NCBI GenBank assembly: GCA_017438945.1 | Contig: JAFRUI010000012.1 | Location: forward strand, 1 to 63,966 | Direction: 5' to 3' | Length of the DNA stretch: 63,966 nucleotides | From: Bacteroidales bacterium | Lineage (GTDB): Bacteria > Bacteroidota > Bacteroidia > Bacteroidales > WCHB1-69 | Part shown: positions 6,731 through 62,428 of the stretch, one piece after another | Position numbering within the stretch: position 1 is the stretch's first letter | Layout of the letters: every line of letters begins with the position of its first letter | Translations under genes and position numbers: made by a program | The notes under the pieces: model-generated | What the model saw: only the letters and a program-made list of their open reading frames with translations | Told to the model about the DNA's origin: nothing | Databases searched by the model: none

Positions 6731-6758
6731 AGTTAGTAGTTAGCAGTTAGCAGTTGGG
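6731..6758 (+). repeat. Heptamer array, four AGTTAGN-like units
   Basis: The units read AGTTAGT, AGTTAGC, AGTTAGC and AGTTGGG, starting 3 bp after the stop of the upstream lipoprotein gene. The same word family recurs after pyrK and at the recX stop. Confidence 0.85.
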
Positions 6759-6803
6759 GGAAAGGGGCGGAAAGTACTGATTCTCTTCTTCTTTTTGGAA
6801 TCA

Positions 6804-7361
6804 ATGAAAAAAATCCTACTGTTTCTGGTAATAACCTTTGTGCTTCAGGCGTGTGCGATCGTACGTACGCCTGGTTTCAACAGTGGTTACAAACGATTGA
6901 CGGCCGAGGAACAGAAACAGATTTGCTTTGTGAGTTCGGTGGAAGAAATCCCTAACCAGAACGACGGCAGAATCATGGCCGTTACAGCCGAGCAGCTGTC
7001 GGTGCTGTTGAAGAAAAATGGGACCACGCTGCTTTACTTATGGTCGCCCCATTGCTCAAGTAGCGTTTGCGTTTCTTTGAAAGCCGTTCAAGATTACTGT
7101 GACCAAGCCAATTTGTCCTTGTATGTTTTAACCGAATATTACACTGATGCGTTTACGCAGATTGAATTCTTGTCACGTCCGATGCTGAGTGTCAATGAGT
7201 TTTATTATAAAACCAGCTACTGCAATTCATACATGAAACGGTTTCTGTCAGAATTGATACCCGATGACAAACGAGAGAGCGATTCGAATCATCGATTTCT
7301 GCTGTTCTCAAAAGGAAGTTTTGTGCAATCGTATGAAAGAATGGAAGATGTTTTTCCTTAA
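6804..7361 (+). CDS. Small lipoprotein with a possible thioredoxin-like fold
   Basis: 185 residues from the ATG at 6804; an in-frame TTG nine bases earlier is less likely. The lipobox LQAC places the lipidated cysteine at residue 17. Residues about 55-80 (VLLKKNGTTLLYLWSPHCSSSVC) have the strand-W-x-P-x-C layout of thioredoxin-fold proteins. The two cysteines are four residues apart (CSSSVC) rather than the usual CxxC, so classical oxidoreductase activity is doubtful. It is third in a run of envelope genes. Its TAA stop is the first triplet of a composite palindromic repeat. The fold assignment is inference from one motif. Confidence 0.6.
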   Translation: MKKILLFLVITFVLQACAIVRTPGFNSGYKRLTAEEQKQICFVSSVEEIPNQNDGRIMAVTAEQLSVLLKKNGTTLLYLWSPHCSSSVCVSLKAVQDYCDQANLSLYVLTEYYTDAFTQIEFLSRPMLSVNEFYYKTSYCNSYMKRFLSELIPDDKRESDSNHRFLLFSKGSFVQSYERMEDVFP

Positions 7362-7433
7362 GCAGCCTCGAAGAGGCAAGACGCGCGAAGCGCAATTAAC
7401 CCCATATATGCAACGAAGGAGCGCAGTGTGGGG
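7359..7433 (+). repeat. Composite palindromic element, copy 1
   Basis: Module A is an AGCAGCC...GGCAAGA hairpin, module B is CGCGCGAAGCGC, and module C begins TTAACCCCATA and ends GCGCAGTGTGGGG. The element starts at the stop codon of the upstream lipoprotein gene. Related full or partial copies lie near 13.6, 17.7, 22.8, 26.1, 26.2, 55.9 and 62.5 kb. Confidence 0.75.
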
Positions 7434-7457
7434 CGGCGAGGACACAGCTCCGTAACA

Positions 7458-7474
7458 GCGTCTCGGAGAGACGC
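7458..7474. repeat. Short hairpin GCGTCTC-GGA-GAGACGC
   Basis: A perfect 7-bp stem with a GGA loop. Two hairpins at 26132 and 26169 share the layout with a compensatory stem change (GCGTGTC/GACACGC), which suggests that the structure rather than the sequence is kept. Confidence 0.6.
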
Positions 7475-7543
7475 AACTCCTTGAAAAAAATTTTTCCACA
7501 AGCTGCAACCCTTTGGCATTTCTGCGTCCTATAAATAAAGTTG

Positions 7544-7551
7544 TAATTTTG
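7544..7551 (+). promoter_or_regulatory. Bacteroidota -7 box upstream of the gene at 7593
   Basis: TAATTTTG, 41 bp before the ATG. A TTTG at 7512-7515 is too distant to be a convincing -33 box. Confidence 0.5.
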
Positions 7552-7592
7552 TCACGTTGAATGAATAGAGTTTATCATCAAAACAAAGAAAA

Positions 7593-8465: not shown

Positions 8466-8475
8466 CCGCCCTGCC

Positions 8476-8495
8476 TGCACACCTGACGGTGTGCA
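8476..8495. terminator. Hairpin between convergent genes
   Basis: TGCACACC-TGAC-GGTGTGCA is a perfect 8-bp stem with a tetraloop, 11 bp after the stop at 8465 and 18 bp before the convergent gene's stop. It has no U-tract on either side, so intrinsic termination is uncertain. Confidence 0.4.
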
Positions 8496-8512
8496 AACCC
8501 GCTTGCGAGACT

Positions 8513-9714: not shown

Positions 9715-9749
9715 CCTTAACCCTTAACCCTTAACCCTTAATCCTTAAC
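9715..9749 (-). repeat. Heptamer array, five CCTTAAC units
   Basis: Five consecutive units (four CCTTAAC, one CCTTAAT). The array begins 4 bp downstream of the ccsBA stop codon. In the sense of that gene the word is GTTAAGG, which contains TAA. Confidence 0.9.
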
Positions 9750-9753
9750 CCAT

Positions 9754-11960: not shown

Positions 11961-12016
11961 CAATAACCCATAACCAATAACCCATAACCAATAACCCATA
12001 ACCAATAACCCATAAC
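11961..12016 (+). repeat. Four perfect copies of a 14-bp unit (two heptamers)
   Basis: The unit CAATAAC-CCATAAC is repeated four times without a mismatch, ending 2 bp from the di-haem oxidoreductase stop codon. The plus strand has TAA in every frame; in the sense of that gene the word carries no stop. Confidence 0.95.
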
Positions 12017-12018
12017 CA

Positions 12019-13578
12019 TTAAATAGCATTGATGAATTTGACGACGGCGTCGCGGTCTTCTTTGCTGAGGTTACGGAATTTCTCGACGGTCCAGCGGGCG
12101 TCGCTTTGGGCGCTGCCGTGCCACATGATGGCCTCGATGACGTTGCGGGCGCGGCAGTCATGCAGACGGTCGCTGGAGCCGGTGCAGATGGCGGAGAGCC
12201 CGCGGCCCCAAAGCGGGGTGGTCCGGCACCAACCCGTGCGGATGTCGTTCTTCATGCAAAGACGGTGCTGCACCATATCGGTGTAAGGCCATATCTTCTG
12301 GTTGGGATAACGCGGCAGACGGCTGTCGCCCGTGGTGAAGAAGCCGTTGGGGTCGGTGAAGCGGTCGGGACCGGTGGTCCAGCTGGGACGGTGGCAGGTG
12401 GCGCATCCGATTTCGCGGAAGATCTTGCGGCCCTTCTGCACCTCCTCGTCTTTGAGGTTACGGGCGGCGGGCACGGCCAAACCGCGGTGCCACACCATCA
12501 GGTTGACGTAGTCGTCATTGCTCATTTCGGCGGGCAATTCTTTGCTCATCAGATAGTTGTAGATATCGGTCTCGGGATTTCCCGTCTTGTTGTATTCAGG
12601 GAAATAGGTGTAGAATTCGGCTTGCACCTGCGGGTCTTGCGAAGCCACGCGGGCGTAGGTCTCGGTCATGTAGTGGTAGCGACGGTCGCCACGAGTCACG
12701 TTGGTGATATTCCAGATGGCGTTGGCGCCGGGACCGTCCTGCAGCGGACCGCGGGAGCAGGCGTAGGTGAAGCGTTTCGGATGGTTAGTCTTGCCGTAAA
12801 GTCCAGTGGGTGCCCAGTCGGTGCCGGCCCACATAGCCGGGTTCAGATTCGCGCCGGCCATCGACTCACGCAGGTATTGCGCCTTCAGCGAGTCGTCGGG
12901 GATGGCATCCAACAGTCCGGTGCCATAAATGCCGATGGTTGATTCCAGACGCACAATCTCGCTGCCGTAAGGGATCTGCACCCCGTTGGATACCAGCGGG
13001 ACGTAGTACGCCGAGGCGGGAATGTAAACTTCTGGATAAATCAGACTGTAAGTTTCACCATCGGGGAAGCGGTTGCCCCATTCATCCACGTAGTCTAGCC
13101 AGTTGATCTGGATTTGGCTCTCGTCGATGGGCGCCTTGAAGGGCGGCACGGCTTTGGTCTGCGGCATGCCCGTGAGCGAACTCACGTAGTTGTCGTTCTG
13201 GTCGGTGACCACCAGCAGGTAACCGTTGCCCCAGTCGCCGGCGGCGTAGCGGTCCATGCGCTTGCCGTGGCCGTAGCCCGGGTGACAGGCGATGCATGAG
13301 CTGCGGATGTAGAGCGGTCCCAAGCCGTTGAACGGCGGCGTGTTGATGTTGAAGTCGCGCTCAAAGAGGTATTCGCCGTACTTGAACGCGGCAATGTCGG
13401 TGACCGCCGGGGCGGGGTCCTCGTAGGCGGACGACGAATTGTTAAACGTTGTTCCCAGTTTTCCTCCGGCGTAAGTCTCTTCCTCAATCCAAGACATTTC
13501 GTCGTTTTCGGGTCTGTGGCAGCCCGCCATCATGATGAATGCCAAAACGATGATAAAAATGTTTTCTATCTTATTCAT
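12019..13578 (-). CDS. Di-haem c-type cytochrome oxidoreductase lipoprotein (DHOR/DUF1111 family)
   Basis: 519 residues. A lipobox (MAGC, Cys 20) anchors it to a membrane. Two haem attachment motifs are visible, CIACH at 95-99 and CATCH at 392-396. The C-terminal RTTPLWGRGLSAI, RLHDCRARNVIEAIMWHG segment is the signature of the di-haem oxidoreductase family (the usual LHDGRA reads LHDCRA here). Members of this family are often found beside imelysin proteins in iron-responsive clusters. Here an imelysin gene and a porin gene lie just upstream on the same strand, and a cytochrome c assembly gene just downstream. A periplasm-facing redox role in iron or haem acquisition is inferred. The natural electron partner is unknown. 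Confidence 0.88.
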   Translation of the reverse strand: MNKIENIFIIVLAFIMMAGCHRPENDEMSWIEEETYAGGKLGTTFNNSSSAYEDPAPAVTDIAAFKYGEYLFERDFNINTPPFNGLGPLYIRSSCIACHPGYGHGKRMDRYAAGDWGNGYLLVVTDQNDNYVSSLTGMPQTKAVPPFKAPIDESQIQINWLDYVDEWGNRFPDGETYSLIYPEVYIPASAYYVPLVSNGVQIPYGSEIVRLESTIGIYGTGLLDAIPDDSLKAQYLRESMAGANLNPAMWAGTDWAPTGLYGKTNHPKRFTYACSRGPLQDGPGANAIWNITNVTRGDRRYHYMTETYARVASQDPQVQAEFYTYFPEYNKTGNPETDIYNYLMSKELPAEMSNDDYVNLMVWHRGLAVPAARNLKDEEVQKGRKIFREIGCATCHRPSWTTGPDRFTDPNGFFTTGDSRLPRYPNQKIWPYTDMVQHRLCMKNDIRTGWCRTTPLWGRGLSAICTGSSDRLHDCRARNVIEAIMWHGSAQSDARWTVEKFRNLSKEDRDAVVKFINAI

Positions 13579-13615: not shown

Positions 13616-13650
13616 TACCGAGCTCTTGCCCCTTCGGGGCCGCTTAAGGA
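13616..13650 (-). repeat. Composite palindromic element, module A only (copy 2)
   Basis: A GCCCC-TTC-GGGGC hairpin flanked by TACCGAGCTCTT and CCGCTTAAGGA, in the spacer between the imelysin and di-haem oxidoreductase genes. The 17.7-kb copy has almost the same flanks. Confidence 0.75.
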
Positions 13651-13653
13651 ATA

Positions 13654-13681
13654 ATTCTTAATTCTTAATTCTAAATTATTC
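13654..13681 (-). repeat. Heptamer array (ATTCTTA) containing the imelysin stop codon
   Basis: The units read ATTCTTA, ATTCTTA, ATTCTAA and ATTATTC. In the sense of the upstream gene the word TAAGAAT carries TAA. The gene's stop triplet (13676-13678) lies in the fourth unit. Confidence 0.85.
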
Positions 13682-17708: not shown

Positions 17709-17743
17709 TACCGAGCTCTTGCCCCTTCGGGGCTGCTTAAGGA
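17709..17743 (-). repeat. Composite palindromic element, module A (copy 3)
   Basis: The core is GCCCC-TTC-GGGGC, with the same TACCGAGCTCTT and GCTTAAGGA flanks as the copy at 13.6 kb. Confidence 0.75.
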
Positions 17744-17818: not shown

Positions 17819-17867
17819 CATTCAGCATTCAGCATTCAACATTCAGCATTTAACATTCTACATCATT
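17819..17867 (-). repeat. Heptamer array (CATTCAG) containing the RND permease stop
   Basis: Seven units: CATTCAG, CATTCAG, CATTCAA, CATTCAG, CATTTAA, CATTCTA, CATCATT. In the sense of the permease gene the main word is CTGAATG, carrying TGA. The permease TGA (17863-17865) is in the last, degenerate unit. Confidence 0.85.
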
Positions 17868-20800: not shown

Positions 20801-20937
20801 CGGATCGTGAACTGCGGGAACTCGTCCTTGTTCAGCTTTGTCAGTGCGAAAATGCCGAATGCAACCAAGCAAGCCACAATGAAGAAGATGATCTTGTGGC
20901 CGCGCATCGCGGAGAGGATATGGTGACGTTTATTCAA
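17863..20937 (-). CDS. RND-family efflux pump inner membrane permease
   Basis: 1024 residues, full length for an AcrB/MdtC-type proton-driven exporter. The first membrane helix (IIFFIVACLVAFGIFALTKL) is followed by a periplasmic porter domain (YPGATAQEVEEQVTKPLE is a family hallmark). A central membrane block contains GMIVDDSVIVIDGY, whose two aspartates correspond to the proton-relay pair of AcrB. A second periplasmic domain and six further helices follow. Its operon partners are the adaptor upstream and TolC downstream. It lies close to MdtB/C-like or multidrug pumps; the substrate cannot be told. The start codon is 2 bp from a 14-bp repeat array. Confidence 0.95.
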   Translation of the reverse strand: MNKRHHILSAMRGHKIIFFIVACLVAFGIFALTKLNKDEFPQFTIRQGVVAAVYPGATAQEVEEQVTKPLERFLFTYSEIDKEKTYSVTENGIVYVYAELRVSVKDKDGAWSKIRHGLQLFKKTSLPAGVLEIVVVDDFGNTSSMLLTVESPERTPRELEHYAEQLCDRLRSIPEMGNIKILGQQNEEIAVLVDQEKLASYGISQRALLVELATQGIRTMGGNVENEAGDAQVHVSIPYQSEYEIGEQIIFTDPLGHQIRLRDIADIQRRYAEAKSHIKYNGASTVLISMEMAPGNNIVAFGKKVESEIAKCKQTLPPDVDMHKITNQPYVVNKSVMSFLRDLLFSILVVIAVMLLLFPLRTALVSGSSVPVCTAITMGLMYIFGIELNTVTLAALIVVLGMIVDDSVIVIDGYTDTLQKGYSRWYSAFNSTKTLFVPMSLATLAISGMFFPMTRIITGPLGDFVQLFPWTVLFALVCSIFYAVWIIPYLSTVFIKRNKDGIAPNRFEAAQNRFFVLLQNLYDKVLAHCFHHPAIVICVAVSAISLGVFLFTRLQIQMLPKADRNCFAVEMHIAEGSTLEQTGAIADSMEHVLRADPRVTSVTSFIGCSSPRFHATYAPQMAHKNYAQFIVNTTSEKNTLKLIREYGPKYEYHFPNAYIRFKQIDYQPVNNPVEVRFAGNDFDAMKSAADSLKNFLNTMPELTWVHSDMDMTSQDIGITLKSDEATRLGVTQSMLSLYLSSALGGQNLTNVWEGDYKVPVMLYTRKSGDTLAYQDLEDFLIPTSIPGTWVPLRQVAEVGPEWHDAVINRRNSIRTVTVGADLNYGCSQPKVMEKIDKYINEDLKPAMADGVEITYGGLTGANNMVIPQIALSFIAAVLVLFIFLLYHFGRLDIVFLTLSASLICVFGACLGLWLFRLDFSITAVLGVVSLIGIIVRNAIIMFEYAESLRKRHQYSAREAAFEAGRRRMRPIFLTSATTALGVMPMIVAHTALWMPMGVVICFGTIFSLPLVVTVLPVMYWQIFK

Positions 20938-20938
20938 T

Positions 20939-20966
20939 GGTTATGGGTTATTGGTTATGGGTTATT
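20939..20966 (+). repeat. Two copies of a 14-bp unit upstream of the RND permease start
   Basis: GGTTATG-GGTTATT occurs twice, starting 2 bp from the permease start codon. The words are the reverse complement of the array at 11.96 kb and match those at 40.74 kb. Confidence 0.9.
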
Positions 20967-21020
20967 GAAGCTTGTGAATAGTGATTAGTGAATTGTGATT
21001 AGAAACTACTTTGGAGGTTA

Positions 21021-21048
21021 ATTATCAATTATCAATTATCAATTATCA
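21021..21048 (-). repeat. Heptamer array, four ATTATCA units, containing the adaptor stop
   Basis: Four perfect units. In the sense of the adaptor gene the word TGATAAT carries both TGA and TAA. The adaptor's last codons (ELIIDN) and its stop at 21032-21034 are made of this array. Confidence 0.92.
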
Positions 21049-22057
21049 ATTCTGCATTAAGATAAAGTTTGTCCATGCCGGCGGTGACGACGGTGTCGCC
21101 GGGGTGGAGGCCGGAGGAGACGAGTACGCCGTTGGCGACAAATTCCGAGGAGGTGATGAGACGGTGTTGCGCGCGGCCGTTCTCCATCACCCAGACGGAG
21201 AGGCCTTCGGGACGGGTTTGCACGCATTTGGCGGGAATCACAAAGCCTTGGTCGTCAGGTTGTTCGAGCATCACCTTGCAGACCATTCCCGGCAGGAGCG
21301 AGCGGTCGGCATTGGGGAAGGCGATCTTCACCTGGTAGCTGTGTGACAAGCGCGAGGAGGTCACGCTCCGGTCGGTGATGCGGCCCGTCATCATGCGGTT
21401 GTCCAAGGCGGGGACATAGACGTAGGCGTCTTCTCCGAGTTTCACGGAGTTGATCTCGCTTTCGGGTACCGAGAAGGTCACGCACACCTTGCCGAGGTCG
21501 AGAATCGTGACGGCGGGTTCGCCGGGCAGCAGCGAGCCGCCCGCTTTGGCGTTGCAACTGCCGATCACTCCCGATACAGGCGCCCGTAACGTGCAGTCAT
21601 CCAGCTGTTTCTTGGCAATCTGCTCCATTGAGCGGGCTTGCTCTAAGGTGGTCTGCATCTCCACCCACTTCACCTCGGCCAGACTGCCCTGGTCATACAC
21701 TTTCTTCAGCCGTTTATAGGCGTCCTCGGCCTGCTCCAGCGCGGCTTTGGCGGAGTTGTAGGCGTTCTGCGCGGTGGCGCTGTTGGCGGTGACGAGGATT
21801 TGTCCCTCGCGCACGCGGTCACCTTCATGCACATAGACGCGCTCCATGCGTCCGCCCATGGGGAAGCTCACCGCCACGGACAGGTTCTCCTCCACGGTGC
21901 CCACGTAGGTGCGAGTCATGCCGCCGGCCACCGTATCGACCACCAGCACTTCCACGTCTATGGGTGGACGCTCCTGTTTCGGCGCCTCGTGCTTGCAGCC
22001 GATTGCCACGGTACAGAATGCCGCCACGGCCAATATCAAGGATGTTGTTCGTTTCAT
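21032..22057 (-). CDS. RND efflux periplasmic adaptor (membrane fusion) lipoprotein
   Basis: 341 residues with a lipobox (AIGC, Cys 21). The domain order is that of an HlyD/AcrA adaptor: a first barrel-sandwich strand (YVGTVEENLSVAVSFPMGGRM), a helical hairpin with Ala/Gln/Glu heptads (about 105-150), the second half-motif (LRAPVSGVIGSCNAKAGG), then beta-barrel and membrane-proximal domains. It would join the RND permease to TolC. Its ATG lies 1 bp after the stop of the upstream lipoprotein gene. Its C-terminus and stop codon fall inside an ATTATCA heptamer array. Confidence 0.93.
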   Translation of the reverse strand: MKRTTSLILAVAAFCTVAIGCKHEAPKQERPPIDVEVLVVDTVAGGMTRTYVGTVEENLSVAVSFPMGGRMERVYVHEGDRVREGQILVTANSATAQNAYNSAKAALEQAEDAYKRLKKVYDQGSLAEVKWVEMQTTLEQARSMEQIAKKQLDDCTLRAPVSGVIGSCNAKAGGSLLPGEPAVTILDLGKVCVTFSVPESEINSVKLGEDAYVYVPALDNRMMTGRITDRSVTSSRLSHSYQVKIAFPNADRSLLPGMVCKVMLEQPDDQGFVIPAKCVQTRPEGLSVWVMENGRAQHRLITSSEFVANGVLVSSGLHPGDTVVTAGMDKLYLNAELIIDN

Positions 22058-22803: not shown

Positions 22804-23014
22804 TTATGTGGGGTTATTAGCGCTTCGCGCGTCTTGCCCCTTCGGGGCTGCTCAAGGAAAGTTTTCATATATATTGGGGTTTTTCGTTAATTCCTCATTA
22901 AATCATCGCCTCATCGTTTCATCGCCTCATCGTGTCATCGTTTCATCGTTTCATCGCCTCATCGTCTCATCGTTTCATCGCCTCATCGTCTCATCGCCTC
23001 ATCGTTTCATCGTC
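22596..23014. other. Gene-free, repeat-only spacer in the RND operon
   Basis: This 419-bp stretch between tetR and the operon lipoprotein gene holds three repeat types end to end: the 66-bp tandem repeat, a composite palindromic element and the TCATCG octamer array. No extra gene or clear promoter box is visible in it. Confidence 0.7.
22786..22862 (-). repeat. Composite palindromic element, copy 4 (full length)
   Basis: Modules C (CCCCACACTGCGC...GTGGGGTTATTAG), B (CGCTTCGCGCG) and A (CTTGCCCCTTCGGGG) occur in reversed order. This is the most complete copy apart from the one at 7.36 kb. Confidence 0.8.
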
Positions 23015-23038
23015 TCATCGTTTCATCGCCTCCTCGTG
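22903..23038 (-). repeat. Octamer array, TCATCGNN repeated sixteen times plus a variant
   Basis: Consecutive 8-bp units TCATCG followed by TT, CC, TC or TG run in strict register. In the sense of tetR the unit NNCGATGA carries TGA; the tetR stop (23015-23017) is in the fifteenth unit. The array then continues 112 bp beyond the gene. The absence of unique spacers excludes a CRISPR. Confidence 0.95.
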
Positions 23039-39316: not shown

Positions 39317-39344
39317 ATTCATAATTCTTAATTCTTAATTCAGA
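39317..39344 (-). repeat. Heptamer array (ATTCTTA) containing the xseA stop
   Basis: The units read ATTCATA, ATTCTTA, ATTCTTA and ATTCAGA. The xseA TGA (39340-39342) lies in the last unit. The same word is used at the imelysin stop, 25 kb away. Confidence 0.85.
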
Positions 39345-40728
39345 ATTCCACCTTCGATCTCACCTCCCCGCAATAAAACCTCGTCACCAAGCTGTCGCCC
39401 TGCGCGAGCTCGGCGGCGTCGGTCACCGCCTTGCCGTCTTTTAACGTGATGCTGTAGCCGCGCTTCAGCACGTTCTCCGGACTGAGCAGCTGCAGCTTCT
39501 CCTCCATGGCCGTGAGGTCGCGGGTCTTGCGCTTCAGCAGGGCATGGCACTCGCGCGGCAGCCGCTCCTCCACGGTCACCAAATGCTGCCTCGACCGCTG
39601 CAACTGCAACTGCGTCTCGTTGCCCGCCTCGCGCATCAACTCTTTCAGCCGGAAATTCTGGCTTGTCATGAACTCTTTGCTCTTGAAAACCAGATTCTTG
39701 TAGGTGTCGGCGAGGTTGCTCCGATGCCAGTCCAGCGCCTTCGGCAACTTGTACTGCAGGGAGGCCTCCACCTTGAGCATCTCCTGACGGCAGTCCGTGA
39801 TCTGCTGCTGCACCCGTTGCACGATGCGACTTACGGCGTCGTCAACCTGCTCGTCGAAGTGGCGGAAGGCGGCTAGCAGCGAGAAGGCCACATCGGTGGG
39901 GGTGATGAAGTGGGCGTGCGCCACCATGTCGGTGACCGTCAGGTTGGTGGAATGCCCGATGCCGGTGAGCACGGGCAACGGGAAGGTGGCCACGCTGCGG
40001 GTCAGTTCGTAGTCGTCGTAGCAGCTCATCCCTACGTCGCCGCCGCCACCGCGCACGATGACCGCCACGTCGAAGTCGTCCTGCCGCATCGCGATCTCCC
40101 CGAGCCGCCCCATGATTCCCGTAATGGCCTTGTCGCCCTGCAAGATGCTGGGAAACAGTTCCGTACGGAAACGGTAACCGTACTCGTTCTGCTGCAGCGT
40201 CTGCATGAAGTCGCTGTAGCCCTTGCTGGTCTCCACGGAGATGACCGCCACGCGCTTCGGCAGCAGCGGCATCGGCAGGTTGCGGTTCCGCTCGAAAAGA
40301 CCCTCCTTCTTGAGACGCGCGATCACCTCCTGACGGTTCTTCACCATCTCCCCGAGGGTGTAGGTGGGCTCGATGTCCTCGATGTGCAACGCCAGCCCGT
40401 GCTTCGGACTGAACTGGATGGTGGCAAGGCACAGGATGCGGATGTTCTCCTTCAACGGCTCGCCGGTGATCTGCTCGAACCGCCGGTTGATGTCCTTGAA
40501 ATTGGCGGACCAGATGACGGCGCGCATCTCGGTCTTGATGGTATTCCCCTCGCGCTCAACAAGTTCCGGATAGCAGTGACCGCTGTAAGGATAGTAGTTC
40601 AGCTTCAGGATTTCCGCCTTGATGTAATAGGGTCGGGTATAGGTGCGCTCGATCATCTTGTGGATGCTCATGGCCACATCCGACAAGGAATAAACGGTAT
40701 GGTTGTTGAAGGTTTCGCGTTCGGACAT
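39340..40728 (-). CDS. xseA: Exodeoxyribonuclease VII large subunit
   Basis: 462 residues. The order is an N-terminal OB-fold single-stranded-DNA-binding domain (about 20-110), the catalytic core with conserved RGGGGDVGMSCYDD (about 230-245) and GIGHSTNLTVTD, then a long coiled-coil C-terminus. With the small subunit XseB it degrades single-stranded DNA. xseB usually follows xseA but is absent here: the next 185 bp hold only repeats and the promoter of the restriction island. The stop lies in an ATTCTTA array. Confidence 0.95.
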   Translation of the reverse strand: MSERETFNNHTVYSLSDVAMSIHKMIERTYTRPYYIKAEILKLNYYPYSGHCYPELVEREGNTIKTEMRAVIWSANFKDINRRFEQITGEPLKENIRILCLATIQFSPKHGLALHIEDIEPTYTLGEMVKNRQEVIARLKKEGLFERNRNLPMPLLPKRVAVISVETSKGYSDFMQTLQQNEYGYRFRTELFPSILQGDKAITGIMGRLGEIAMRQDDFDVAVIVRGGGGDVGMSCYDDYELTRSVATFPLPVLTGIGHSTNLTVTDMVAHAHFITPTDVAFSLLAAFRHFDEQVDDAVSRIVQRVQQQITDCRQEMLKVEASLQYKLPKALDWHRSNLADTYKNLVFKSKEFMTSQNFRLKELMREAGNETQLQLQRSRQHLVTVEERLPRECHALLKRKTRDLTAMEEKLQLLSPENVLKRGYSITLKDGKAVTDAAELAQGDSLVTRFYCGEVRSKVEF

Positions 40729-40739
40729 GCTTTTGTAAT

Positions 40740-40806
40740 GGTTATTGGTTATGGGTTATTGGTTATTGAAGGTTTAATGGTTATGGGTTATTGGTTATTG
40801 GTTATT
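40740..40806 (+). repeat. Heptamer array (GGTTATT/GGTTATG) upstream of xseA
   Basis: Four units (40740-40767), an 11-bp break, then four more (40779-40806), starting 12 bp upstream of the xseA start. The word is the same as upstream of the RND permease. Confidence 0.85.
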
Positions 40807-40809
40807 GAA

Positions 40810-40865
40810 GGTTAAAGGTTAGAAGGTTAAAGGTTAGAAGGTTAGAGGTTAGAAGGTTAGAAGGT
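40810..40865 (+). repeat. Irregular 7/8-bp array (GGTTAGAA, GGTTAAA)
   Basis: About seven units of mixed length directly beside the previous array, completing a spacer between yqgE and xseA made almost only of repeats. Confidence 0.75.
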
Positions 40866-40902
40866 ACGATGTTTAGGACGAAAGTACGGTTTGCCAATTA
40901 TA

Positions 40903-40930
40903 ATTATCAATTATCAATTATCCATTATCA
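40903..40930 (-). repeat. Heptamer array (ATTATCA) containing the yqgE stop
   Basis: The units read ATTATCA, ATTATCA, ATTATCC and ATTATCA; the yqgE TGA (40928-40930) is in the last unit. The same word ends the RND adaptor gene. Confidence 0.88.
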
Positions 40931-41509
40931 ATTAAACGTAATGTTTTTCGGGATTTTCAGCCAGTGTTCGTAGGGTTTGCCGAGGCGTTTGACGGCGAGG
41001 GGCCAGATCTCTTCGGGGGGCGTGTCGAATATCAGGGAATGCGTGGCGGGGGCGACTACCCACATGTTGCGCAGAAGCTCGTCTTCGAGCTGTCCGGGTG
41101 ACCAGCCGGCGTAGCCCAACAGGAATTTGTGCTTCAGGTTGGGGATGGCCGCGTGCTCGATAACGGCCAGCAGCACAGGATTGTAGCCCACATAGACGTT
41201 GGGGAGCAGTTTGGACGCCTCCGGACAGGAGTCGAAGTTGTGCAGAAGGAAAACGGCTTCGGTCAGCACCGGCCCGCCGAAGAAAATGGGCGTATCGACT
41301 TTGATCTCGTTCACCACCTCGCGCACGCTGTGCGGCAGCGGCCTGTTGATGATCAGCCCCGCCGTGTGCTCCTCCTCGTAGTCCGTCAGCAGCACCACGG
41401 AATGGTTGAAGAAGGGGTCGTTGAAGTACGGGGTGGAGATCAACAACCGCCCCGCATCCGGCACGATCCCGGTGGGCTCAAAATCCAGAAAATCATTGTA
41501 CATGTCCAT
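40928..41509 (-). CDS. yqgE: YqgE/AlgH family protein
   Basis: 193 residues from the ATG at 41509, or 191 from 41503. An upstream start at 41527 is rejected because the -7 promoter box lies across it. The family blocks LLISTPYFNDPFFNHSVVLL, GLIINRP, FFGGPV and LGYAGWSPGQLEDEL are all present. YqgE/AlgH is a small conserved cytoplasmic protein, linked historically to transcription control, whose exact role is unsettled. It is divergent from pyrK. Confidence 0.92.
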   Translation of the reverse strand: MDMYNDFLDFEPTGIVPDAGRLLISTPYFNDPFFNHSVVLLTDYEEEHTAGLIINRPLPHSVREVVNEIKVDTPIFFGGPVLTEAVFLLHNFDSCPEASKLLPNVYVGYNPVLLAVIEHAAIPNLKHKFLLGYAGWSPGQLEDELLRNMWVVAPATHSLIFDTPPEEIWPLAVKRLGKPYEHWLKIPKNITFN

Positions 41510-41661: not shown

Positions 41662-42405
41662 ATGAGATATTTTGACAGTAAAGTGCTGGACAATCAACAG
41701 GTGGCTGACGACATTTTTGTGCTACGTGTGGAACGTAATGGCGCGGAGGCGAAGGCGGGACAGTTCTACATGTTGAAGAGCTGGGACAAGGAATTGACTT
41801 TGATGCGTCCGATCAGTGTCTTCAAGGCGGAACCGGATGAGCTGTGGTTTATGTACCGCTTGGTCGGAAAAGGCACCCAAAGGATGTCGCTGTTGGAAAA
41901 GAATGCGTCCATCAAGTTGCTGGGACCATGCGGGAACGGCTACCCTTGCGAGAAACTCTCCGGAAAAGTGGCTGTCGTCGGTGGCGGACTGGGCGTCCCC
42001 CCGTTGTGCGAGACGTCCAAACAGCTGACCCAGGCCGGGGTCACCGTTGATGCTTACCTCGGCTTCCGGGATGTCCTTTTCGGCGTGGAGGATTTTGAGC
42101 CGTGGTGCGACAGTATCTTCGTCTCCACCGAAAAAGGAGAAGAGGGCTACAAAGGATTTGTCACGGATCTGCTGAAACCGGAAGGATACGATTGCGTGAT
42201 CACCTGCGGACCCGAAATCATGATGCGCAAGGTCGCCGCGATGTGCGCGGAAGCCCATGTTCCCTGTTACTGCTCGCTGGAGCATCGGATGGCCTGCGGA
42301 CTCGGCGCCTGCCTCGGCTGCAGCATCCGCACCCAAAACGGCATGAAACGCGTCTGCAAAGACGGCCCGGTCTTCCTCAGCACCGACCTGCTGTGGAATA
42401 GTTAG
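41662..42405 (+). CDS. pyrK: Dihydroorotate dehydrogenase electron-transfer subunit
   Basis: 247 residues. An FAD-binding barrel (LMRPISVFK near residue 50) is followed by an NAD-binding domain (VAVVGGGLGVPPL) and a C-terminal 2Fe-2S cluster site with four cysteines (CSLEHRMACGLGACLGC... ...RVCKDG). PyrK passes electrons from dihydroorotate oxidation to NAD in class 1B enzymes. Its partner PyrD follows 135 bp later, across a spacer made of heptamer and hexamer repeats. The TAG stop is part of the first heptamer. Confidence 0.94.
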   Translation: MRYFDSKVLDNQQVADDIFVLRVERNGAEAKAGQFYMLKSWDKELTLMRPISVFKAEPDELWFMYRLVGKGTQRMSLLEKNASIKLLGPCGNGYPCEKLSGKVAVVGGGLGVPPLCETSKQLTQAGVTVDAYLGFRDVLFGVEDFEPWCDSIFVSTEKGEEGYKGFVTDLLKPEGYDCVITCGPEIMMRKVAAMCAEAHVPCYCSLEHRMACGLGACLGCSIRTQNGMKRVCKDGPVFLSTDLLWNS

Positions 42406-42462
42406 CCGTTAGTAGTTAGCAGTTAGCAGTTAGTAGTTAGTAGTTGGCGGTTAGTAGTTGGC
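42400..42462 (+). repeat. Heptamer array, nine AGTTAGC-type units, containing the pyrK stop
   Basis: The units read AGTTAGC, CGTTAGT, AGTTAGC, AGTTAGC, AGTTAGT, AGTTAGT, AGTTGGC, GGTTAGT and AGTTGGC. The pyrK TAG (42403-42405) is in the first. Confidence 0.93.
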
Positions 42463-53700: not shown

Positions 53701-54684
53701 ATGAAAATAGCTCTTGTCGGAGCCACTGGATTAGTGGGTGGCGTAATGCGTAAAGTGTTGGTTGAAAGAGGATTTGAGGATTGTGAATTCATTCCTGCCG
53801 CCTCTTCTAAATCTGTCGGAAAAATGTTGTCATACGGAGACCGTGAGGTTGCCGTTGTGTCTGTGGAGGATGCCATCGCGCGGCGTCCGGACTTCGCCAT
53901 CTTTTCTGCTGGCAGTGCGGCCTCGCTTGAATATGCGCCCAAGTTCGCTGCCGTCGGCACCGTGGTCATTGACAACTCCGCCGCTTGGCGCAGCGACCCG
54001 AAGATTCCGCTTGTGGTGCCCGAAATTAACGGCGACGTCATCACCCCTAATGACAAGATCATCGCCAACCCGAATTGCTCCACCATCCAGATGGTGATGG
54101 CGTTGGCACCGTTGCACAAACGCTTTGGAATCAAACGGTTGGTGGTGTCGACCTATCAGTCTGTCACGGGCACGGGCAAGAAGGCTGTGGATCAGCTGAT
54201 GAGCGAGCGTGCGGGGCTTCCATGCGATCCCGCCTATCCGTATCCCATCGACATGAACCTCTTCCCGCATGGCGGTTCCTTCACCGATGACGGCTACACC
54301 ACCGAGGAGATCAAGCTGTTGAATGAGACCCGCAAGATATTGAGGGATAATAATATACAAGTCACAGCAACGGTTGCCCGCGTGCCTGTCACAGGCGGTC
54401 ATTCCGAGGCGGTGAATGTGGAGTTCCGTCAGGAATATGATTTGGCGGAGGTCTATGAGCTGTTGAATAATATGCCTGGCGTGAAGGTGCTGGACGCCCC
54501 TGCCGAGAATGTCTATCCGATGCCGAAATATGCTGAGGGACAGGACGATGTCTTCGTGGGTCGTATCCGTCGCGACTTCTCCCAGCCGAACACCCTGAAT
54601 CTTTGGGTGGTGGCCGACAACCTCCGCAAGGGTGCCGCGACGAATGCGGTGCAGATCATGCAGTATATAATTCATAATTCATAA
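53701..54684 (+). CDS. asd: Aspartate-semialdehyde dehydrogenase
   Basis: 327 residues from the ATG at 53701; the 25-residue upstream extension spans the promoter and is rejected. NADP-binding GATGLVGG at 7-14; catalytic Cys 126 in NPNCSTIQ; later QSVTGTGKKAVDQL and HSEAVNVEF. It makes aspartate semialdehyde for lysine/diaminopimelate, threonine and methionine synthesis. The last residues (YIIHNS) and the TAA are encoded by an ATAATTC heptamer array, followed by a strong terminator. Confidence 0.96.
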   Translation: MKIALVGATGLVGGVMRKVLVERGFEDCEFIPAASSKSVGKMLSYGDREVAVVSVEDAIARRPDFAIFSAGSAASLEYAPKFAAVGTVVIDNSAAWRSDPKIPLVVPEINGDVITPNDKIIANPNCSTIQMVMALAPLHKRFGIKRLVVSTYQSVTGTGKKAVDQLMSERAGLPCDPAYPYPIDMNLFPHGGSFTDDGYTTEEIKLLNETRKILRDNNIQVTATVARVPVTGGHSEAVNVEFRQEYDLAEVYELLNNMPGVKVLDAPAENVYPMPKYAEGQDDVFVGRIRRDFSQPNTLNLWVVADNLRKGAATNAVQIMQYIIHNS

Positions 54685-54708
54685 TTCATAATGCATAATG
54701 CATAATTG
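54667..54708 (+). repeat. Heptamer array, six ATAATTC-type units, containing the asd stop
   Basis: ATAATTC three times, ATAATGC twice, then ATAATTG. The asd TAA (54682-54684) lies in the third unit. Confidence 0.92.
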
Positions 54709-55836: not shown

Positions 55837-55876
55837 AGGACGATGATACGATGATGCGATGATGAAATAATTCATA

Positions 55877-55967: not shown

Positions 55968-56717
55968 ATGAAACGACTGGTTATTATTCCGACTTATAAG
56001 GAGAAAGAGAACATTGAGAACATCATCCGGGCAATTTATGACCTGATTGATGTCCATATTTTAATTATAGACGACAATTCTCCGGACGGCACTGCGGACA
56101 TTGTGAAGTCGCTGATTCCGGAGTTTGAGGGACGTCTGTTCATTGAGGAACGTTCGGGCAAACTCGGTCTGGGAACCGCTTACATCCACGGATTCAAGTG
56201 GGGATTGGCGCGTGGCTACGACTATATGTTCGAAATGGACGCCGATTTCTCGCACGACCCGCACGACCTGCAACGGTTGTATGACGCGTGCGAGACGCAG
56301 AACGCCGATGTGGCCATCGGTTCCCGTTACTGTCAGGGAGTCAATGTGTTGAACTGGCCGATGGGGCGTCTGCTGATGTCCTACTACGGCTCCGCGTACG
56401 TGCGCACCGTCCTGGGCGTGCCCGCGAAAGACACCACCGCCGGCTTCATCTGCTACCGCGCCGATGTCCTCAACGCCATCGATTTCGACAAGATCAAACA
56501 TATCGGCTATGGTTTCCAGATTGAGATGAAGTTCACCGCTTGGAAACTCGGTTTCAAGATTGTGGAGGTTCCGATCATCTTCAAGGACAGAACGTTGGGT
56601 GTCTCCAAAATGAGCTCCGGCATCTTTCGTGAAGCCATCTTCGGCGTCATCGGTCTCAAAATCCGTAGCTGGTTCCGCAAATGGGAACGCGTCGATAACC
56701 GCGCGAAGCTTCAATAA
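55968..56717 (+). CDS. Family 2 glycosyltransferase, polyprenyl-phosphate mannosyltransferase-like
   Basis: 249 residues. The dolichyl/polyprenyl-phosphate mannose synthase layout is clear: PTYKEKENIENIIRAI, DDNSPDGTADIV, the DxD-type EMDADFSHDP and the acceptor loop GSRYCQGVNV. It has no C-terminal membrane helices, so it is the soluble single-domain type. It would use a nucleotide sugar to load a lipid carrier at the membrane. Its stop lies in a CAATAAC/CCATAAC heptamer array. Confidence 0.9.
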   Translation: MKRLVIIPTYKEKENIENIIRAIYDLIDVHILIIDDNSPDGTADIVKSLIPEFEGRLFIEERSGKLGLGTAYIHGFKWGLARGYDYMFEMDADFSHDPHDLQRLYDACETQNADVAIGSRYCQGVNVLNWPMGRLLMSYYGSAYVRTVLGVPAKDTTAGFICYRADVLNAIDFDKIKHIGYGFQIEMKFTAWKLGFKIVEVPIIFKDRTLGVSKMSSGIFREAIFGVIGLKIRSWFRKWERVDNRAKLQ

Positions 56718-56732
56718 CCCATAACCCATAAC
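56712..56732 (+). repeat. Heptamer array (CAATAAC, CCATAAC x2) containing the glycosyltransferase stop
   Basis: The TAA at 56715-56717 lies in the first unit. The word is the same as in the 11.96-kb array. Confidence 0.85.
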
Positions 56733-56742
56733 CATTACAAGA

Positions 56743-57903
56743 ATGGAATACTTTGTGGCAAAAACGTTCGCCGGTCTGGAGACGGAACTTTTGAAGGAGC
56801 TGCACGCTTTGGGCGCCAAGAATTGCGAGAAGCTCAGTCGTGCCGTGGCTTTCGAGGGCGACATGGAGATGCTGTATCGGGCGAATTACTACTGCCGCAC
56901 CGCCCTGCGCATATTGTGGCGGCAAAAACGGTTCACTTTTAAGAACAACCGCCAGTTTTACGAGCAGATTTTCGATTTTCCCGCCGAAGAGTACCTTTCC
57001 CCGGACGGGACGTTGGCCGTCCACGCCACGATTGTCGACACCATTTTCAGTACGCCGTTGTACGCCTCCGTGTTGGCCAAAGACGCGATTTGCGACCGTT
57101 TCAGAGACCGTTACGAGCGTCGTCCATCGGTGGACAAGGAGTACCCTGACGTGCAGTTCCATCTGCATATCTACAAGGACGAGGCGCAGCTGTTCATGGA
57201 CAGTTCCGGCGAGTCGTTGCACAAGCGCGGGTACAAGGTGCGCAACCATCCTGCCCCGCTGAACGAGGTGGTGGCCGCCGCCATGATCATGAAGAGCGGA
57301 TGGAAAGGCGACTGCGATTTCATCGACCCGATGTGCGGGGGCGCGACCCTTCTTGTCGAGGCGGCCATGCAGGCGCTGAACATCCCCGCAGGCTTCTACC
57401 GTCGCGAATACGGATTCTACCAATGGAAGAATTTCGACCGCCAGCTTTGGAAGAAGGTGCGTGAAGAAGCGGATATCAAGGATGATGTGGATATTAACTT
57501 TTACGGTTCCGATATCGACGGACGATTTCTGGATATTGCGCGCGCCAATGTCCAGAAAGCCCGTTTACTGGATTTCATCATTCTGGAGAGGCAGGATATG
57601 CGGCACAGTGCGCCGGAGAATGTCCCCTCGGTGGTGATGATGAACCCGCCATATGGAGAACGGCTTTCCGTCGATGACATCAACACCTTGTATCAGGAAA
57701 TCGGAGACACGCTGAAAAAACGCTATGCGGGATGCAAGGCGTTTATTATCAGTTCGGATATGGAAGCCCTGAAGCATATTGGATTGAAACCCGCCCATAA
57801 GTGGCCGATGTTGAACGGTTCGCTGGAGTGCGTGTTCCTGGAATATGAACTTTTCTCAGGAGACAGAAAGCAACATGTCATTCAGAAAAAGCAGCGTGTA
57901 TGA
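56743..57903 (+). CDS. THUMP-domain class I RNA methyltransferase (RlmL/RlmK-N-terminal type)
   Basis: 386 residues. A THUMP-like RNA-binding N-terminus (about 1-160; MEYFVAKTFAGLETELLKEL) precedes a Rossmann methyltransferase domain with the S-adenosylmethionine site DPMCGGATLLVEAA near residue 196 and the catalytic MMNPPYGERL near 300. By family it would methylate guanine N2 in 23S rRNA. The start of the next gene overlaps its stop by 4 bp (ATGA). Confidence 0.92.
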   Translation: MEYFVAKTFAGLETELLKELHALGAKNCEKLSRAVAFEGDMEMLYRANYYCRTALRILWRQKRFTFKNNRQFYEQIFDFPAEEYLSPDGTLAVHATIVDTIFSTPLYASVLAKDAICDRFRDRYERRPSVDKEYPDVQFHLHIYKDEAQLFMDSSGESLHKRGYKVRNHPAPLNEVVAAAMIMKSGWKGDCDFIDPMCGGATLLVEAAMQALNIPAGFYRREYGFYQWKNFDRQLWKKVREEADIKDDVDINFYGSDIDGRFLDIARANVQKARLLDFIILERQDMRHSAPENVPSVVMMNPPYGERLSVDDINTLYQEIGDTLKKRYAGCKAFIISSDMEALKHIGLKPAHKWPMLNGSLECVFLEYELFSGDRKQHVIQKKQRV

Positions 57904-60211: not shown

Positions 60212-60230
60212 TCATATAATTCAATTTATT

Positions 60231-60320
60231 ATGCCTAGCGGAAAAAAACGTAAACGTGCGAAAATGAACACGCACAAACGCAAAAAAAGATTGAGAAAGA
60301 ACAGACATAAATCAAGATAG
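60231..60320 (+). CDS. Tiny basic AURKAIP1/COX24-domain protein (bS22/mS38-like)
   Basis: 29 residues; more than half are Lys or Arg (MPSGKKRKRAKMNTHKRKKR and RKNRHKSR at the end). This is a known, highly conserved short protein of Bacteroidota with the COX24/AURKAIP1 C-terminal motif. Homologues elsewhere are small ribosomal subunit proteins (mycobacterial bS22, mitochondrial mS38), so a ribosomal role is inferred. Co-transcribed with HU and ending 20 bp before a terminator hairpin. Confidence 0.88.
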   Translation: MPSGKKRKRAKMNTHKRKKRLRKNRHKSR

Positions 60321-60340
60321 TTCTTTCTGCGTTGCAAAAT

Positions 60341-60376
60341 GAAAACTAAATGATTTTAACGAGTCATTTAGTTTTC
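60341..60376 (+). terminator. Intrinsic terminator after HU and the basic protein
   Basis: GAAAACTAAATGA pairs with TCATTTAGTTTTC (13 bp) around a 10-nt loop and is followed by TTTCTTTAT. It lies just before the rng start at 60391. Confidence 0.85.
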
Positions 60377-60390
60377 TTTCTTTATAGACT

Positions 60391-61977
60391 ATGGAGAATA
60401 ATCAAGCAGAAATCACAAAAGAAATCATCATCACTTCTCATACCAATGAGGTTCAGGTGGCTTTGCTGGAGGATAAGAAGTTGATGGAAATTCATACCGA
60501 GAAATCATCGGCGCAGTTTTCTGTCGGAGATATCTATTTGGGCAAGGTGAAGAAGATTATGCCCGGTTTGAATGCGGCTTTTGTGGATGTGGGGAGTGAA
60601 AGGGAGGCTTTTTTGCATTATCTCGACCTCGGCCTGCATGGCCGCACTATCAATGCGTTTGTAAGTCAGGCGATCACGACCGGCAAACGCAGTATCAGTC
60701 GTGTACAATATTTAGAGGAGATTCCTAAAAACGGGAAGATCAGCGATGTGTTGACCTCCGGTCAGCAGATCATGGTGCAGGTGGCCAAGGAGCCCATCTC
60801 CACCAAGGGCCCGCGTATCACCACGGAGATCTCCTTTGCGGGCCGTTATCTCGTGCTGGTGCCGTTCGGCGACAAGGTGTCCGTCTCGCAGAAAATCAAA
60901 AGCAGCGAAGAACGGAAACGCCTGCGCACCGCCGTCCAAAGCATACGCCCGCGCAACTTCGGCATCATCATCCGCACCGTGGCGGAAAACAAGTCGGTGG
61001 AGGAACTCTCCGCCGACCTCGACATGCTCCGTTACCGTTGGGACACGACCGTGGAAAACCTGTTCGCCTCCAAGGCCCCTCTGCGCCTCGCCCAAGAGGA
61101 AAACCGCGTGGCTTCCCTGCTGCGCGACTTCCTCAACGACTCGTTCCACGCCATCTACGTCGATACGCCTGAAATGTTCACGGAAGTCAAGAACTACCTG
61201 CACGTGCATGCGCCCGAGCAGGAGGAAATCGTCAGCCTTTACAACGAAAAACGCCCCATCTTCGACTATTTCAACGTGGCCAAGCAGATCAAGGGGTCGT
61301 TCGGCAAAGTGGTGACCGTGAAGAACGGCGTGTATCTGATTATCGAACACACCGAAGCGATGCACGTGATTGACGTCAACAGCGGAAACCGTGTGAAATC
61401 CTCCCAGACTCCTGAGCAGAACGCCTTGAACACCAATATGATAGCGGCGCAAGAAATTGCCCGTCAGCTGCGTCTCCGGGATATGGGCGGCATCATCACC
61501 ATCGACTTCGTGGATTTGCACGATCCCGCCAACAAGAATACGCTCAACAAGGCGATGGCCGAGTTCATGCGCAACGACAAAGCCAAACATACCATACTGC
61601 CTCTCAATAAGTTCGGACTGATCCAGATTACGCGGCAGCGTGTGCGGCAGGCTACCATTATTGAGAACACGGAGGTTTGTCCCACCTGTAAAGGGACTGG
61701 CAAGATTAAGCCGCCGATTGTCATTGAAGACGAGATTGCCAATGCACTCGACTTCCTTTTCCAGAAGCAGCACGAACCGAAGATCACGGTGGTCACACAT
61801 CCGTTCGTATATGCTTATCTGACAAAGGGTTTCCCTTCCATCCGGATGAAATGGTGTTTCCAATACAAGAAGAATATCCGGATTGTGTCTAACCAAAGCA
61901 GCCGTCTGACGGAGGTGCATTATATGAACGAGCACAACGAGGATATCATCCTTTGGAACGAACCCGCAAGAGAATAA
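60391..61977 (+). CDS. rng: Ribonuclease E/G family protein
   Basis: 528 residues, the RNase G length, without the long RNase E scaffold. An S1 domain at about 38-125 (QFSVGDIYLGKVKKIMPGLNAAFVDVG) is followed by the DNase-I-like catalytic core with metal-binding Asp in HVIDVNSGN and TIDFVD, and the zinc-link cysteines CPTCKG near 430. It takes part in rRNA maturation and mRNA decay. recX follows after 2 bp. Confidence 0.95.
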   Translation: MENNQAEITKEIIITSHTNEVQVALLEDKKLMEIHTEKSSAQFSVGDIYLGKVKKIMPGLNAAFVDVGSEREAFLHYLDLGLHGRTINAFVSQAITTGKRSISRVQYLEEIPKNGKISDVLTSGQQIMVQVAKEPISTKGPRITTEISFAGRYLVLVPFGDKVSVSQKIKSSEERKRLRTAVQSIRPRNFGIIIRTVAENKSVEELSADLDMLRYRWDTTVENLFASKAPLRLAQEENRVASLLRDFLNDSFHAIYVDTPEMFTEVKNYLHVHAPEQEEIVSLYNEKRPIFDYFNVAKQIKGSFGKVVTVKNGVYLIIEHTEAMHVIDVNSGNRVKSSQTPEQNALNTNMIAAQEIARQLRLRDMGGIITIDFVDLHDPANKNTLNKAMAEFMRNDKAKHTILPLNKFGLIQITRQRVRQATIIENTEVCPTCKGTGKIKPPIVIEDEIANALDFLFQKQHEPKITVVTHPFVYAYLTKGFPSIRMKWCFQYKKNIRIVSNQSSRLTEVHYMNEHNEDIILWNEPARE

Positions 61978-61979
61978 CG

Positions 61980-62420
61980 ATGGAGATACCATCTGAGATA
62001 ATAATGAAAATAGAGCGTTTCTGTGCCTATCAGGAACGGTGTGAAAATGACGTGAGGAAAAAGCTCACGTCATTTCGTTTGTCGGGGAGCCAGGAAGATG
62101 CCATAATAAAATCGTTGCGTGAGAACAATTTTCTGAGCGACGAGCGTTTTGTGGAGGTTTTCGTGCGCAGTAAGGTGAAAGCCGGCTGGGGAGTTCAGAA
62201 GATTGTGGCGGCGTTGCGCGCGAAACGTATCCCGGCGGAACTCATCGACCAAGCCTATGCGCAAATCCCTGCGGATGATTATCTAGGGAAATTGCACGAT
62301 GCCATCGCCAAATGGCGCCGCTCGCATCCCGACGAACCGGCCAAGAGTCCGAAACTGGTCCGGCACCTGCTGTCGAAAGGGTTTAGGGTGGAGGAGGCTC
62401 TGGAAGCAGTTAGTGGTTAG
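61980..62420 (+). CDS. recX: Regulatory protein RecX
   Basis: 146 residues from the ATG at 61980; an in-frame upstream start overlaps rng. RecX three-helix repeats are visible (RFCAYQERCENDVRKKLTSFRLSG, ENNFLSDERFVEVFVRSKVKAGWG, LRAKRIPAELIDQAYAQI). It binds RecA and tunes its filament. A 12-bp perfect inverted repeat (62045-62075) lies in the early coding region. The C-terminal codons and TAG are formed by an AGTTAGT heptamer array. Confidence 0.9.
   Translation: MEIPSEIIMKIERFCAYQERCENDVRKKLTSFRLSGSQEDAIIKSLRENNFLSDERFVEVFVRSKVKAGWGVQKIVAALRAKRIPAELIDQAYAQIPADDYLGKLHDAIAKWRRSHPDEPAKSPKLVRHLLSKGFRVEEALEAVSG
62045..62075. repeat. Perfect inverted repeat in the recX 5' coding region
   Basis: AAATGACGTGAG and CTCACGTCATTT are separated by GAAAAAG. 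In RNA this gives a 12-bp stem with a 7-nt A-rich loop about 65 nt inside the gene. Confidence 0.85.
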
Positions 62421-62428
62421 CAGTTAGT
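62408..62428 (+). repeat. Heptamer array (AGTTAGT, GGTTAGC, AGTTAGT) containing the recX stop
   Basis: The TAG (62418-62420) is in the second unit. The word family matches the pyrK array, 20 kb away. Confidence 0.85.

Follow-up and report, generated by a model that had tools for sequence, protein, structure and literature searches.

The 63,966-nucleotide stretch of DNA analysed here (the window; contig JAFRUI010000012.1 of the Bacteroidales assembly GCA_017438945.1) raises the question why so many of its genes end in tandem arrays of 7- or 8-bp words that offer a stop codon in every reading frame. The initial annotation listed at least eleven stop codons lying inside, or built from, such arrays. 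Eight of the eleven are indeed wholly inside (RND adaptor, tetR, xseA, yqgE, pyrK, asd, glycosyltransferase and recX), while the imelysin stop shares two bases with its array and that of the RND permease one, and the Exo_endo_phos stop (55836) falls in a degenerate copy of a CGATGA word just before the array. The arrays reported just past the stops at 6727, 9754 and 12019 are recovered by an ungapped scan, with starts 1-5 bp after the stop, and the word at the di-haem oxidoreductase gene has, as described, no sense stop, the real one lying outside. We consider it probable that the arrays are polar elements of gene borders, built of heptamers (sometimes octamers), and that stop-bearing words are tolerated where an array replaces a gene end.

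Arrays were detected with Tandem Repeats Finder (TRF), which recovers one at every site listed by the initial annotation, and with an ungapped period scan, and the base sample for their counts comprises 637,878 bases, 34% of the window's own assembly (G000; 1,859,213 bases or 1.86 Mb, 63% complete). In this sample the ungapped scan, covering periods 4-13, found six arrays of period 6, 99 of period 7, nine of period 8, one of period 10 and five of period 12, while one first-order Markov resample gave none at any of these periods. The anticipated dominance of periods not divisible by three is therefore seen, but mostly since 7 alone dominates, which makes it uninformative. Period-7 arrays reach 15.5 per 100 kb in G000, 15-20 in the genus samples G020, G026, G013 and G011, ~10.6 in G006 and G012, 5.8 in G016, and 4.4 and 2.3 in the array-poorer G029 and G022; 20 other families of the same order yielded a single one in 235,809 bases. 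The same gene ends bear arrays in different assemblies, which disfavours an assembly artefact. At a score of at least 12, a period-7 or period-8 array stands at the 3' end of 70 of the 509 called genes of the G000 sample (13.8%) and at the start of 25 (4.9%); at a score of at least 14 the numbers are 65 and 24. The arrays at gene ends are thus confirmed as genuine and beyond chance. Rfam gave no match in the window at gathering scores, and hence no known structured RNA element. The nearest named relatives, judged by asd, are metagenome-assembled genomes of Bacteroidales, mainly from the rumen and other ruminant gut, and the source is likely an uncultured bacterium of rumen origin.

Border statistics rest on pooled samples from ten genomes of the genus, orthologous arrays included, and on borders of coding sequences (CDS) set by our own codon-model gene caller; arrays of period 7 or 8 entered at a score of at least 14, with 12 as the lower threshold. 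Among 260 arrays, 204 lie in co-directional, 23 in convergent and 15 in divergent spacers, 14 at contig edges were set aside, and only 4 are inside genes, in agreement with the expectation that arrays are rare there. Compared with the numbers expected if arrays were spread evenly over these spacers, with 20 bp of overlap permitted on each side, 84 of the 204 co-directional arrays overlap a stop (expected 38.8) and 32 begin 0-5 bp past one (expected 10.4), which bears out the proposed enrichment at stops. A further 40 terminate 0-15 bp upstream of a start (expected 20.8), whereas 45 are found in mid-spacer (expected 104.0) and 3 overlap a start (expected 30.1). Hence stops are favoured, yet starts harbour a second, smaller class of arrays, and gene ends are not their sole location. 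Taken together, 156 of the 204 (84 + 32 + 40) adjoin a border, which shows that most arrays abut a CDS, 3' or 5'.

At both kinds of border the arrays have a common orientation. Read outward from the CDS, 103 of 129 words at 3' ends have more G than C, 15 have less and 11 have equal numbers; at 5' ends the figures are 39, 6 and 1 of 46. Arrays beginning 0-5 bp past a stop, which carry no ascertainment, give 30 against 2 of 33. The trend holds within G000, where no orthologues are duplicated (62 against 15 of 81), when each distinct word is counted once (42 against 14 at 3' ends, 18 against 6 at 5' ends), and for words without GG or CC at 3' ends (90 against 15). On the plus strand, arrays on the left of co-directional spacers are mostly G-rich and those on the right mostly C-rich in both directional classes (53/14 against 5/24 and 40/8 against 23/50; Fisher p ~2e-8 each), from which it follows that polarity tracks the geometry of the spacer and not the direction of the genes. 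Convergent and divergent spacers show a like trend (p 0.052 and 0.057). Of 49 spacers with at least two arrays, 29 run from G to C from left to right, one from C to G, and in 19 the signs are alike or neutral. When the G-rich strand is followed, the CDS on its 5' side is a median of 4 bp away and that on its 3' side 82.5 bp, the 5' neighbour being the nearer in 197 and the 3' neighbour in 58 of 256 cases. Array-free spacers have no consistent GC skew. The outward G-rich polarity is the stronger rule, and stop content is at most secondary.

This ranking bears on the explanation offered by the initial annotation, namely selection for a translation stop that halts ribosomes in every frame and insulates the next gene. 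It survives best among the alternatives, although we judge it unlikely. In support, 90 of the 109 arrays that overlap a stop supply sense stops in every frame, compared with 44 in antisense, and 101 of 109 have sense-stop words against 77.0 for letter-shuffled ones. However, an open reading frame (ORF) ends at its first in-frame stop, and over an array without one it simply reads on; the excess is therefore partly forced and inflated by ascertainment, and only non-overlapping arrays test selection. Just past the stop, all three frames are stopped in sense in 25 of 37 arrays and in antisense in 18, and the words show no significant excess of sense stops (26/37 against 23.3 shuffled). The postulated excess over shuffled words thus fails overall, but it appears once the GGTTA family is removed (25/28 against 18.1, reached by ~0.0015 of shuffles). 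Start-side arrays stop all frames in the gene's sense in 38 of 50 cases and in antisense in 16, and 39 of 50 of their words carry gene-sense stops against 20.6 shuffled, an excess due to the GGTTA family (14/25 against 11.4 without it). Both the non-GGTTA excess past stops and that on the start side are also predicted by stop selection.

Other observations speak against stops as the driver. GGTTATT-type arrays lacking any sense stop stand directly past stops, 10 of the 33 arrays starting 0-5 bp past one have no sense stop, and arrays also precede starts. Where polarity and sense stop conflict in CDS-free border arrays, polarity prevails in 16 cases (nine at 3', seven at 5') and the stop in one (17 and 2 if start-overlapping arrays are kept), GGTTAT words making up 8 of the 9 conflicts at 3' ends, so that small word diversity underlies this test. 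For eubacteria, the available part of PMC6764699 reports no evidence for selected fail-safe 3' stop codons. The shuffled words and the conflict cases thus lead us to dismiss the frame-independent stop as the main driver and to keep it as a modest possible addition: non-GGTTA words past stops retain a modest preference for sense stops, and the all-frame stop is mainly a by-product of tolerance.

The number of units is a further regular feature. In spacers of the eight array-richer samples, with up to two mismatches per unit, heptamer arrays of 2, 3, 4, 5, 6 and 7 units occur 57, 46, 95, 61, 25 and 7 times, while the counts at period 6 are 114, 18, 3, 3 and 4 from two units upward and five Markov resamples of the spacers gave 46 two-unit and 3 three-unit runs. 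With one mismatch per unit the heptamers keep a local peak at four (132, 61, 82, 31 and 15 for 2-6 units), and the mode at four is present in words both with and without GG or CC. Overall, arrays peak at about four to five units (28-35 bp). The clearest case is a sharply bounded element, AAT(GGTTANN)nGARG. Over 40 genomes of the genus, n=3, 4 and 5 occur in 88, 415 and 18 places (totals summed by us) and in 17, 17 and 11 genomes, respectively, and the reversed control is absent from all 40. In the sampled DNA, 43 of 60 GGTTANN runs of at least three units consist of exactly four; TAAT precedes 42 of the 60 runs and GAAG follows 34; position 7 is G, T or A in the first three units and T in the last in 40 of 43. 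The counts of this element, sharply centred on four units, look unlike slippage.

The words themselves come from a limited genome-wide set, recur at unrelated loci in the genus samples, and may differ between sister species at one gene end. In asd, the words that come after a conserved QIMQYI are ATAATTC in the arrays of G000, G013 and G026, of the CGATGA type in G006 and G020, AGGCAAT together with others in G012, and GAACAGT in G016, and the gene ends without an array in G019, G007 and G063; the array-coded residues and stops supplied by differing words after QIMQYI are counted as tolerance. The Exo_endo_phos gene likewise ends in GATAATT in G011 and in CTTTGAC-type words in G012. The RND permeases of G000 and G020 are 98.8% identical, yet the gene ends in CTGAATG arrays in the former and in CGATGAGG 8-mers in the latter, and the homologous spacer resumes past both. 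By our count, an array is present in one or more species at 26 orthologous ends. Word families differ between species at 7 of these, and the others either keep the same word or have their array in a single species. Word sets look lineage-specific, the array-poorer G029 and G022 using other words. TAGAGTT, AGATTAG and TAATAGT are found in G029, and the outward trend is kept, 6 against 2 (G029/G022 samples, L114-L127). Of 395 Bacteroidota genomes, 16 (G000 included) have GATAATT triplets, compared with one for the reversed word, so that the word recurs in other families. Among the aligned cases shown, no clean empty site of the GGTTANN element between orthologues was found, the spacers being too scrambled.

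Ordinary replication slippage, by which period-7 microsatellites would arise everywhere, be purged from genes and be tolerated at borders, appears improbable in the light of these features. It would account for the near absence of arrays inside CDS, for monotonic counts where exact units are required, and for differences in unit number between orthologues: the di-haem oxidoreductase of G013, 99.4% identical in protein, is followed by four units against eight in G000, a 28-bp difference. A contact length of the polymerase of 7 nt, an idea reported in the available part of PMC4692102, would fit the period. Slippage does not lead one to expect the four-unit mode seen where units may vary and in the GGTTANN element with its sharp bounds, nor the strong polarity, the border rather than mid-spacer sites, words recurring at unrelated loci and differing words at one gene end.

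Still less probable is the extension of 3' ends at DNA breaks in spacers by a telomerase- or terminal-transferase-like activity, which would add outward G-rich repeats before the ends are rejoined. A G-rich strand that leads away from the CDS at either side of a spacer, the convergent array pairs and the variable last base of the unit are consistent with it. Such a variable last base is reminiscent of Plasmodium telomere repeats. A bacterial telomerase-like reverse transcriptase that makes tandem-repeat cDNA, DRT10, is described in the available part of PMC12632851. Against this, RVT_1 occurs in 9 of the 40 genus genomes, among them the array-rich G013 and G006 but not G000 (63% complete), G020, G026, G012 and G011, and Ku in none of the 40. 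A reverse transcriptase or telomerase-like enzyme and Ku-dependent end joining were therefore rejected for want of a consistent gene in the 40 genomes, other enzymes not having been searched for. Least probable of all, and dismissed as a general cause because words without GG follow the same rules, are regulatory G-quadruplexes, formed in DNA or RNA by four G-tracts near gene borders, as considered by Rehm et al. for GGGAATC repeats: the four GG tracts of the 43 exactly four-unit GGTTANN runs, and a polarity and four-unit preference alike in the available part of PMC4692102, would fit, but only 17 of the 307 period-7 and period-8 arrays outside genes have GGG or CCC, as the G3+ tracts of a three-layer quadruplex would demand, and 108 have GG or CC, while words without either keep the four-unit mode and the 3'-side polarity.

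We therefore return to polar border elements as the probable explanation. Some process would place arrays, each about four units long, in spacers or rebuild them there, the arrays would then lengthen or shorten in multiples of 7, and purifying selection would clear them from genes. A gene end overrun by an array would persist only if the sense strand of the array brings a stop into frame, which any stop-bearing word does because neither 7 nor 8 is divisible by 3. Several results weigh against this reading, beginning with the two stop excesses that stop selection predicts as well. With exact units the heptamer counts fall monotonically (320, 64, 15), so that the four-unit mode depends on tolerated unit variation, and at period 8 the counts (18, 5, 4, 5, 5, with up to two mismatches per unit) have a long tail and no mode. 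Three-unit GGTTANN elements rival four-unit ones in G062 (9 and 8), G009 (9 and 5), G031 (9 and 11) and G016 (3 and 3), and a small number of the three-unit hits lie within four-unit ones. The polarity of words without GG or CC is not significant on the 5' side (12 against 4), and GATAATT arrays outside the genus have no clear polarity, 8 against 6 (14 scorable of 17 loci). Gene borders come from our own caller and orthologous arrays enter the pooled counts. Finally, the analysis identified no placing enzyme or binding protein.

The closest known systems are other heptamer repeats. Cyanobacteria have intergenic repeats called short tandemly repeated repetitive sequences (STRR) or long simple sequence repeats. 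Like the arrays here, these are intergenic heptamer arrays with several words per genome, their abundance being covered in the available parts of PMC4692102 and PMC4679880. The initial annotation knew of no description tying heptamers to stops, but both of these papers connect such repeats with stop codons. Rehm et al. 2015 (PMC4692102), in the part available, tie GGGAATC and GGGGA(C/T)T heptamers of Xanthomonas and Nostoc to quadruplexes, whose formation is shown in vitro, and count repeats that overlap stop codons. Their repeats share with ours the period, the mostly intergenic location, some overlap with stops, the preference for four units and the convergent pairs, and the G-rich strand is likewise sense after stops and antisense before starts and nearer to the 5' neighbouring ORF. 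Here too, the heptamers are intergenic above chance, polar, close to the 5' neighbour and preferentially of four units, except when exact units are demanded. As far as that text goes, however, the Rehm repeats are of one word type with G3 or G4 tracts, whereas here one genome has many words, most of them without any GG, and the words differ between sister species at one gene end. MacGregor 2015 (PMC4679880), again in the part available, describes TAACTGA repeats of Beggiatoaceae, Cyanobacteria and some Bacteroidetes that stop all three frames in the forward orientation and hence necessarily lie at ORF ends. All-frame stops in one orientation and overlap with ORF ends (90/109) are also found here. 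TAACTGA repeats, too, stand close upstream of starts, and tolerance at the gene periphery was proposed for them, but they are of one word and mostly at starts, unlike our arrays; having equal G and C, they do not allow the polarity rule to be read. The TAACTGA doublet TAACTGATAACTGA is absent from all ten genome samples.

By analogy, the closest likeness of the arrays, probably also in the way they work, is with heptamer repeats known from Xanthomonas, Nostoc and Beggiatoaceae. Judged by the available text of the two papers, polarity and four-unit preference (PMC4692102) and all-frame stops at ORF ends (PMC4679880) are already published. The present analysis adds that words without GG obey these rules, that one genome has many words, and that words are rapidly replaced at fixed gene ends. 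Tentatively, these repeats may belong to a general class of polar elements of about four heptamer units at CDS borders of distant bacteria, set by unit length, unit number and polarity and not by sequence or quadruplex. It might be made by an undiscovered activity that swaps words where proteins are 96-99% identical, either by adding repeats to 3' ends in spacers or by copying pre-formed four-unit arrays.

Table 1. Arrays and GGTTANN elements of the window and their position relative to genes.
Array or element	Coordinates	Strand	Position
AGTTAGC array	6731..6755	+	begins 3 bp past stop 6727 of gene without Pfam match
GTTAAGG (sense) array	9715..9751	-	2 bp (TRF) or 5 bp (scan) past stop 9754, cytochrome c assembly/ResB gene
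GGTTATG/GGTTATT array, 8 units	11963..12017	-	1 bp past TAA 12019, di-haem oxidoreductase gene; word without sense stop
AGAATTA array	13652..13677	-	2 bases in common with imelysin stop (13676)
CTGAATG array	17819..17863	-	RND permease stop (17863), 1 base shared with one TRF row
four-unit AAT(GGTTANN)4GARG element	20936..20970	+	~30 bp upstream of called RND permease start; G-rich strand outward
GTGATTA/GTGAATA array	20974..21002	+	shares spacer with element 20936..20970
GATAATT array	21020..21051	-	encloses RND adaptor stop (21032)
NNCGATGA 8-bp array	22903..23037	-	encloses tetR stop (23015)
GAATTAT/GAATTAA array	39317..39348	-	encloses xseA stop (39340)
four-unit GGTTANN element	40737..40771	+	~10 bp upstream of xseA start
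second four-unit GGTTANN element	40776..40810	+	shares spacer with element 40737..40771
GATAATT array	40902..40934	-	encloses yqgE stop (40928)
AGTTAGC/AGTTAGT array	42399..42459	+	encloses pyrK stop (42405)
ATAATTC array	54667..54707	+	encloses asd stop (54684); sister species with other words there
CGATGATG 8-bp array	55841..55864	+	after Exo_endo_phos stop (55836)
three-unit GGTTANN element	56709..56736	-	precedes gene starting 56743; C-strand gives glycosyltransferase stop (56717)
AGTTAGC-type array	62405..62427	+	encloses recX stop (62420)

Gene names are based on Pfam matches, which agree with those used for the array-bearing genes of the window; the gene at 5903-6727 has no match at E 0.001. 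The glycosyltransferase takes its stop from the element that precedes the start of the following gene (CTTCAATAACC...), so that one element serves two genes (56709-56743). At the di-haem oxidoreductase gene, a 14-bp TRF row at 11961-12022 extends over the stop at 12019.

The window also contains other repeats. A GC-rich, hairpin-like dispersed element (GCTCTTGCCCC...GGGGC..CTTAAGG) is located near array-bearing gene ends at 13622-13649, 17715-17742 and 62504-62532, and a loose pattern of it has 9 matches in the G000 sample. A 66-bp tandem repeat of 3.3 copies at 22588-22802, beginning CCCCACACTGCG, overlies the 5' part of the called gene 22059-22793, for which Pfam gave no match. The motif CCCCACACTG(C/T)G occurs in 7 places in the window and in 14 in the G000 sample. 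Between ~23.1 and 39.3 kb the scan found no arrays of period 7 or 8; this stretch, possibly a horizontally acquired island, has several weakly scored genes and includes an HsdR-like type I restriction gene (31320-34682) and a gene for a YobI-like P-loop NTPase (27804-31136).

About 14% of the gene ends sampled in G000 bear arrays, and as their words can differ between sister species, gene ends and spacers are being rewritten while the proteins remain nearly unchanged. The location at borders, the outward G-rich strand and the preference for about four units, without any need for GG, argue against a general quadruplex account and make simple slippage unlikely. The same rules provide a testable signature with which the process can be traced in other bacteria. 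For gene callers and comparative studies they also call for caution, as C-terminal residues and stop codons may be encoded by the arrays.

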